Assembly: GCA_950073835.1 (NCBI GenBank)
Contig: CATMRP010000020.1
Coordinates: 1-47,803 of the forward strand
DNA from: an uncultured Alteromonadaceae bacterium
Lineage (GTDB): Bacteria > Pseudomonadota > Gammaproteobacteria > Enterobacterales > Alteromonadaceae
Direction of reading: 5' to 3'
Length of the DNA stretch: 47,803 nucleotides
The notes under the pieces were generated by a model. The model was given only the letters and a program-made list of their open reading frames with translations, was not told the origin of the DNA and made no database searches. Every line of letters begins with the position of its first letter. Position 1 is the first letter of the stretch. The translations under genes were made by a program, and so were the position numbers. Below, piece after piece: positions 11,759-12,895 of the stretch.

Positions 11759-11780
11759 GCCCCGCTAGCGGGGCTTTTTT
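11759..11780 (+). terminator. Rho-independent terminator of the nag operon
   Basis: The perfect 16-base palindrome GCCCCGCTAGCGGGGC is followed directly by six T residues, 47 bases after the nagP stop. It works for the plus strand. The other side has no A-run, so it would not terminate the leftward GGDEF gene, whose stop is 8 bases away. Confidence 0.93.
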
Positions 11781-11787
11781 GCTGGTA

Positions 11788-12762
11788 TTATGAGTCTGCC
11801 ATTCCACCGGCATAAGATACAACCTGATTGCGCCCGGCGTTTTTAGCTTTGTAGAGCGCTTTATCGGCGCGACTAACCAGCCCGTCATCAGAAATATTGG
11901 CGCTAATGGTTGCTACCCCAATGCTGCAGGTAATAGTAATATTATTGGTGAGCGTCATCGCTTCAACAGCCAGACGGATCCGATTGGCCAGCTCATGTGC
12001 TTGTTCACCCGGCGTTTCCGGCAATATAACTAAAAATTCCTCGCCGCCATAACGACCAACCGAGTCGGGTTGTCTGATATTGCTGGCAATACACATGGCC
12101 AGATCATGGAGTACTTTATCGCCGGTTTGGTGGCCATGGTTATCGTTGATGTCTTTGAAATGATCTACATCGATCATCAGGATGGAAAACGCTCGGTGGT
12201 AACGCTGATATGCCAGGTAACAGCGACTAAGCCGGTCCATAATGGCGAAGCGACTGGCAATGCCGGTAACAGTATCGGTATTGGCCTGACGCTCGAGTTC
12301 CTGTGTACGCTGTTTAACTTTTTCTTCCAGCGATTTGTTGGTTTCTTCGAGTTCCGTTCTGAGCCTTTCGAGCTCGGCATTACGTTGCTTTAGCATATCA
12401 ATACTGGGGATGCTGATGAGTGTGGGCATTAAGCGCCATAAACACACCGCAGTGACAATGGATATAACCCCGGTAGAGAACTTAATAACGCCTTCTATAA
12501 AATAGTAGCCATGCCATATGTTAATGAGCCCGGCCAGGTGTGAAGCACCGCAAAAGGCAATAAATCCGCCAAACAACATGGCAATGCCATTAAAGTTGAG
12601 ATCTTTGCGCTTGTGCAAGAAATAGAATATCCCGAAGGGGATCAATGAGTAAGCCATGACCGTTAACAGGTCGCCGCCGAGATGTAAAAACAACAGATCC
12701 CAACGCCACAACAGGCAGTGCCCATGTGGCATCAGGCTTCCATCAAATATTCGGTCCAGCAT
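11788..12762 (-). CDS. Diguanylate cyclase with ethylene-receptor-like (ETR1-type) membrane sensor
   Basis: 324 residues. Residues about 25-115 form three membrane helices that closely follow the N-terminal ethylene-binding domain of plant ETR1. Visible are GGDLLTVMAYSLIPFGIFYF (D31, Y38, I41-P42, matching ETR1 D25, Y32, I35-P36) and FGGFIAFCGASHL (C71 and H75, matching copper ligands C65 and H69). A third helix leads into LMPTLISIPS. A coiled coil (about 122-160) joins it to a GGDEF domain with an intact GGEEF signature (239-243) and an RxxD inhibitory site (RQPD, 230-233). It should therefore make cyclic di-GMP with product feedback. The ligand could be copper-bound ethylene or another small molecule, which the sequence alone cannot decide. 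The start has GGAGA upstream. Confidence 0.9.
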   Translation of the reverse strand: MLDRIFDGSLMPHGHCLLWRWDLLFLHLGGDLLTVMAYSLIPFGIFYFLHKRKDLNFNGIAMLFGGFIAFCGASHLAGLINIWHGYYFIEGVIKFSTGVISIVTAVCLWRLMPTLISIPSIDMLKQRNAELERLRTELEETNKSLEEKVKQRTQELERQANTDTVTGIASRFAIMDRLSRCYLAYQRYHRAFSILMIDVDHFKDINDNHGHQTGDKVLHDLAMCIASNIRQPDSVGRYGGEEFLVILPETPGEQAHELANRIRLAVEAMTLTNNITITCSIGVATISANISDDGLVSRADKALYKAKNAGRNQVVSYAGGMADS

Positions 12763-12895
12763 GCCGTCTCCATTGTAGCAGCATTAATGACGTGGGTATT
12801 TGAATCCCAAGGCGTCACTACTTAAAGTCTTCACTTCATTGAGCTTAATGCTAAATTGCGATAACAGCCAAAATTTAGGGCATTATTTTAGTTGT

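Follow-up and report, generated by a model that had tools for sequence, protein, structure and literature searches.

A conserved fusion of an ethylene-receptor-type membrane domain to a diguanylate cyclase domain in Alteromonadaceae

In the part of the literature covered here, bacterial receptors that carry an ethylene-binding domain (EBD) have a kinase output. SynEtr1/UirS of Synechocystis, which was compared by its description in the portions of the literature covered, is a bacterial EBD protein that binds ethylene, and it is also a photoreceptor and signals by a histidine kinase. AzoEtr1 of A. brasilense is described in similar scope as an EBD followed by PAS and histidine kinase parts; its residues 1-130, produced in yeast, bind 14C-ethylene, and disruption of its gene removes nearly all ethylene binding from A. 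brasilense cells, according to the sections covered of PMC11819568. The same sections report that binding is abolished when C65 or D25 of Arabidopsis ETR1, or the matching cysteine of SynEtr1, is mutated, and that the AzoEtr1 variants D35A and C75A were made. Copper and ethylene binding are matters of record for the EBDs of relatives, as far as these sources go. For plant receptors, the excerpted text of PMC13012798 describes the step from ethylene binding in the membrane to the signal as only partly understood. For GeiEtr2, the extract covered of PMC6682694 places a cyclase domain in a separate, adjoining gene, and none of the literature matches listed, as far as their text was covered, described an EBD fused to a cyclase.

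Here we describe such a fusion in the window, by which we mean the whole stretch of 47,803 nucleotides analyzed, taken from a contig (CATMRP010000020.1) of an uncultured Alteromonadaceae bacterium.

Domain content and predicted structure

The gene encodes a protein of 324 residues on the minus strand (11788..12762), reading from an ATG start codon at 12762 down to 11788. A Shine-Dalgarno-like GGAG (12768..12771, minus strand), recognized by sequence pattern only, is separated from the ATG by 5 nt. The initial annotation had claimed an ETR1-like domain and a cyclase in one open reading frame, and this was confirmed by Pfam. The ETR1_N profile (PF25487) matched residues 23-117 (12412..12696, minus strand) with an E-value of 1.2e-30 over profile positions 2-96 of 97, and the GGDEF profile (PF00990) matched residues 160-313 (11824..12285, minus strand) over its whole length with an E-value of 1.3e-42. 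The match to the ethylene-binding domain, on which that annotation had proposed to stand or fall, was a strong one, at 106 bits, the cut-off being 27. Pfam detected neither HisKA nor HATPase in the protein, which sets it apart from receptors with a two-component or plant-type kinase output. The GGDEF domain model of NCBIfam also exceeded its cut-off, and the best 25 of 31 NCBIfam matches included no equivalog above its own cut-off. This gene is the sole PF25487 match in its assembly (4.9 Mb, 95.6% complete).

A fold search returned only cyclases among the best 50 of 630 matches, including 5llx, 3ign, 3i5c, 7e6g and 6ttr, and a sequence-profile search of the PDB found no solved structure for the EBD. 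DgcB, the WspR fusion, SiaD and the Idiomarina bacteriophytochrome cyclase share with the window protein the cyclase fold and a helix preceding it, whereas their sensor inputs are unrelated. The GGEEF active-site signature (residues 239-243; 12034..12048, minus strand) and the RQPD product-inhibition site of RxxD type (residues 230-233; 12064..12075, minus strand), a feature that some cyclases lack, lie five residues apart. GGEEF, R230, D233, D198, D200, N206 and D215 were found in all 30 complete fusions collected (see below), so that the metal and nucleotide residues expected of a diguanylate cyclase are present. Judged by these residues and the full-length PF00990 match, the diguanylate cyclase is predicted to be intact.

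An AlphaFold2 model (a monomer with mean pLDDT of 86.9, a pTM of only 0.56 and a shallow alignment of 67 sequences) predicted three N-terminal membrane helices, at residues 21-51, 58-84 and 87-117, and one long helix, residues 121-161, that runs into the cyclase. The linker between the two domains (residues 118-161; 12280..12411, minus strand) is thus predicted to be helical and coiled-coil-like. Its bulky hydrophobic residues fall at positions spaced 3 and 4 apart and occupy 47% and 73% of two heptad positions, against at most 18% of the other five. The alignment from C71 to D163 had zero gaps in 30 of 30 fusions, indicating that the spacing of sensor and cyclase is fixed. A fixed length and a heptad pattern fit a dimeric coiled coil, which would pass a rotation or a change of register to the pair of GGDEF domains.

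Sensor residues and published ethylene receptors

The three-helix Cu(I) domain of ETR1, as far as it is described in the sources covered, has counterparts at matching spacing in the window protein: ETR1 D25, Y32, I35, P36, F61 and I62 correspond by spacing to D31, Y38, I41, P42, F67 and I68, and C65, H69, K91, T94, S98 and P110 to C71, H75, K94, T97, S101 and P113. Asp31 (12670..12672), Cys71 (12550..12552) and His75 (12538..12540, all on the minus strand), the last two being the presumed copper ligands, as well as Tyr38 and Ile41-Pro42, occupy the positions that the initial annotation had assigned to them. The seven residues needed for ethylene binding by ETR1, which we take to be D25, Y32, I35, P36, I62, C65 and H69, all occur in the window protein, as they do in every one of the 30 fusions. 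In the passages covered, seven residues are given as required for ethylene binding (PMC6682694), and the binding or signalling residues named are D25, C65, H69 and K91 (PMC11819568), I35, P36, I62, C65 and H69 together with T94, S98 and P110 of helix 3 (PMC6586836), and Y32, F61, I62, C65 and H69 (PMC8879215).

For comparison with a bacterial receptor, a plasmid-encoded frame of A. brasilense was used, from a strain other than that of the published AzoEtr1. The frame has 525 residues and begins MFGGVEAF; since its length and first residues fit the published description and primer, it is presumably AzoEtr1. The EBD was 42% identical to it over residues 2-124 (tblastn), and window residues 10-129 aligned to it free of gaps. 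D31, Y38, I41, P42, F67, I68, C71, H75 and K94 face D35, Y42, I45, P46, F71, I72, C75, H79 and K98 of this presumed AzoEtr1, so that the two proteins share the same D/Y/I/P/F/I/C/H/K set as well as the N-terminal motif described below. They differ in output, which is PAS plus histidine kinase in AzoEtr1, as described in the sections covered, and a GGDEF cyclase reached through a helical linker in the window protein.

Since a sensor domain of copper-binding type is joined to a c-di-GMP enzyme, the protein probably acts alone as a sensor of ethylene or copper. The reading that we favour, to which we give a probability of roughly 0.6, is a one-component membrane sensor enzyme in which ethylene or a similar olefin, bound to Cu(I), alters c-di-GMP synthesis. 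The conserved ligands indicate a binding site and not the natural ligand. Copper and ethylene binding by the window protein itself, its dimer, the coupling and the sign of the response are inferred.

The N-terminal motif PHGxCxxW, read PHGHCLLW in the window protein (residues 12-19; 12706..12729, minus strand) and predicted to be periplasmic, is a further conserved element. P12, H13, G14, C16 and W19 did not vary among the 30 fusions or among 67 chosen bacterial EBDs, and P, H, G, C and W stood at these positions in 91 of 109 other EBD sequences. Plant receptors such as ETR1 differ from the cyanobacterial ones in having two N-terminal cysteines versus one, and the single cysteine of the latter may replace the plant disulfide, according to the part covered of PMC6682694. 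Among rows lacking C71 or H75, C16 was absent in 6 of the 8 that were readable, compared to 1 of the 94 that retained both (Fisher 1.4e-7, a value that ignores kinship; 7 gapped rows not counted). We suggest that C16 links the dimer, as a candidate inter-subunit disulfide, or sits near the copper site. Several pi-acceptor ligands have an affinity for Cu(I) sites, and with this chemistry the joint loss of C16 and the copper ligands would also suit a Cu(I) sensor of CO, of another alkene or alkyne, or of thiol or redox state via C16. We consider such a sensor quite unlikely, as the pocket residues match those of receptors whose ethylene binding has been measured, and the rows showing joint loss are few and related by descent.

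Distribution and conservation of the fusion

PF25487 was searched in five overlapping genome samples, and matches were found in 25 of 59 genomes of the genus, 71 of 295 of the family, 29 of 398 of the phylum, 16 of 369 of the class and 17 of 240 alphaproteobacterial genomes. The loci retrieved from these yielded 30 complete compact EBD-GGDEF fusions, the window's included, all from Alteromonadaceae: they were present in 14 of the 59 genomes of the genus, probably Alteromonas, and in 16 that belong to six further genera. Frames longer than about 625 residues were mostly read in their first part in the family search, so that a far C-terminal GGDEF domain could be missed, and the fusion gene of one genus genome (G081, locus L133), cut by a contig end, was left out of the residue counts. 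The fusion is therefore not peculiar to the window genome: the union of a domain of ethylene-receptor type with an intact cyclase in the 324-residue protein is real and conserved, and also occurs in related marine Alteromonadaceae.

Five of the 29 other fusion proteins were 89-99% identical to the window protein, and the sensor domains of all 30 had a mean pairwise identity of 66% and a minimum of 50%. At this divergence D31, Y38, I41, P42, F67, I68, C71, H75, K94, T97, S101 and P113 were invariant in 30 of 30 fusions; conservation of C71 and H75 among orthologues had been named beforehand as decisive for the claim, which came through intact. Invariant columns numbered 42 of 118 in the sensor, and all eight ligand or signalling sites tested (D31, Y38, I41, P42, I68, C71, H75 and K94) were among them, with a hypergeometric probability of 1.6e-4 that ignores kinship. 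Binding residues can be lost, since of 109 further EBD sequences, a set that includes fragments, 60 kept all seven and 96 kept both C and H.

In four long proteins from this genus (L131, L132, L134 and L135; frames of 1093-1246 residues) the EBD lacks the copper cysteine and other binding residues. Judged from these degenerate copies, the domain can persist without its ligand residues. A constitutive cyclase for which the membrane domain is a mere anchor or dimeriser is one way to read the window protein, as three short helices could anchor it and a constant partner gene is absent from the compared loci. However, neither twelve binding or signalling residues nor the length of the linker vary among the fusions at the sensor identities given above, whereas the four degenerate proteins illustrate the domain in a relaxed state, and we regard a mere anchor as very improbable.

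In a maximum-likelihood tree of 122 EBDs, computed quickly on a short alignment that leaves many forks open, a branch with SH-aLRT support of 99 separated the 30 compact fusions from the rest. Duplicates and degenerate or partial rows (L132-L135, L131/L133 excepted; L160; L260-L264; L278; L281-L285) were excluded beforehand, and six of the remaining 128 rows were removed by a profile filter, including L253, whose loss may be due to trimming. L253 and L255, from other gammaproteobacteria, likewise have EBD and GGDEF in one chain but are long multi-domain EBD-PAS-GGDEF proteins, L253 having also the start of an EAL domain. L255 carries Asn in place of Asp31 and lies outside the compact clade, indicating more than one joining of EBD to GGDEF in the sample, with the compact form as one lineage.

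In a scan of genome contigs, EBD and GGDEF occurred together only in L001 among the best 80 of 580 relatives, and L029 had an EBD alone in its frame; L003 showed no EBD by profile, though tblastn had matched residues 7-318. None of six loci from viral contigs had an EBD by profile. Eighteen plasmid records matched the EBD, of which 6 bear kinase- or PAS-type names and 12 are unannotated there; the one that was read is a kinase.

Histidine-kinase parts were present in all of the seven further EBD proteins to which Pfam was applied: a hybrid kinase of the window's genus (L246), three proteins of Alteromonadaceae (L164, L219 and L220) and the proteins L141, L144 and L156. Besides kinases, the family and the genus have EBDs as standalone proteins. 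Standalone EBD proteins of about 140-200 residues were seen in L213-L218, L254:1435-2028, L269:1423-1836 and L270:1429-1848. In L213, L216, L269 and L270, where the next gene was scanned with Pfam, a histidine-kinase gene follows the standalone EBD; in L254 the EBD gene is divergent from a REC-GGDEF gene and is itself followed by a gene for a PAS protein. It is possible, going by gene order, that standalone EBDs and their adjoining genes are split ethylene receptors. In the alphaproteobacterial locus L270 a SCO1/SenC gene (PF02630, 6.3e-41; L270:826-1386) lies directly upstream of the standalone EBD gene.

Gene neighbourhood and proposed signalling

The plus-strand neighbours of the window gene are nagA and a NagP-like transporter gene, whose NagP match is below its cut-off; on its own strand the window gene adjoins an inositol-phosphatase-superfamily gene. 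A perfect GC hairpin of six pairs with a T6 tail (11759-11774, plus strand) lies between the convergent nagP and cyclase genes and probably ends the nagP transcript. A promoter scan gave one promoter-like site, on the strand opposite the gene, against 1.9 expected. The full neighbourhood, nagA/nagP on one side and the phosphatase on the other, recurred in 5 of 29 other fusion loci, and L229 and L234 share three genes on one side with the window. Of the 29 loci, 16 were compared with flanks of only about 4 kb; in 22 of the 29 no flanking gene was shared with the window at an E-value of 1e-20, beyond one weak match. An operon or partner gene as a general explanation was rejected, because the neighbours differ between lineages, and for the same reason there is no support for an operon.

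Some loci have neighbours of note. In three genomes a YfiR/HmsC-like gene (L199:3321-3812, L201:3326-3817 and L206:4468-4959) stands beside the fusion, next to a TonB receptor gene, the YfiR/HmsC-like call resting on Pfam for the first two and on membership of the same cluster for L206. YfiR is a periplasmic controller of the cyclase YfiN, so the adjoining YfiR-like genes suggest that some relatives may have a second input. A gene for a family 3 solute-binding protein was found in five fusion loci, and in L207 and L208 the fusion gene follows DsbD-, redoxin- and DsbA-like genes. No ethylene-linked gene was found among the annotated neighbours of the fusion loci. The 25 commonest families of 95 neighbouring ORFs in 24 of the 30 fusion loci included none for copper export or resistance, the ORFs being read from stop to stop and cut to 300 residues; 49 rarer families lie outside these 25.

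These neighbours bear on the possibility that the protein is a copper or copper-redox sensor, in which the cyclase would respond to Cu(I) loading as such, and ethylene would have no role in the cell. Scs and SCO1 proteins have copper roles; the Dsb-like genes of L207 and L208 resemble a copper-sensitivity (Scs) set in 2 of 24 neighbourhoods, although NCBIfam returned no Scs model for L207, the standalone EBD gene of L270 follows a SCO1/SenC gene, and the presumed copper ligands are invariant in the fusions. Against this, the commonest neighbouring families gave no copper export or resistance family, and Y38, I41, P42, F67 and I68, whose ETR1 counterparts are needed for ethylene binding and are not named copper ligands, are equally invariant. 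A copper sensor is unlikely in our judgement, and an olefin bound to Cu(I) is the better reading of the pocket.

In the olefin-sensing scheme a homodimer of three-helix EBDs would hold Cu(I) between Cys71 and His75, with Asp31 assisting, and ethylene or a similar small olefin would reach this copper from the membrane. The signal would pass through helix 3 and the coiled coil of fixed length and change the facing of the two GGEEF domains, so that c-di-GMP synthesis would go up or down on ligand binding, and c-di-GMP at the RxxD site would limit the output.

With its sensor, fixed helical linker and enzyme in 324 residues, the protein would be a simple test system for signalling by ethylene domains, and its product would be readable in E. 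coli by standard c-di-GMP reporters. If the scheme is true, this would be the first ethylene receptor with a non-kinase enzyme output, within the literature searched and the parts of it covered. Ethylene arises in the sea from algae, for example, or from light acting on dissolved matter. That a marine clade of Alteromonadaceae has a one-protein ethylene receptor, turning an environmental gas directly into c-di-GMP and dispensing with a phosphorelay, is a tentative proposal to which we give somewhat less than an even chance. If ethylene is the ligand, marine heterotrophs would join plants, fungi, cyanobacteria and plant-associated bacteria among the organisms that sense it, and ethylene would be a cue for surface attachment in the sea.
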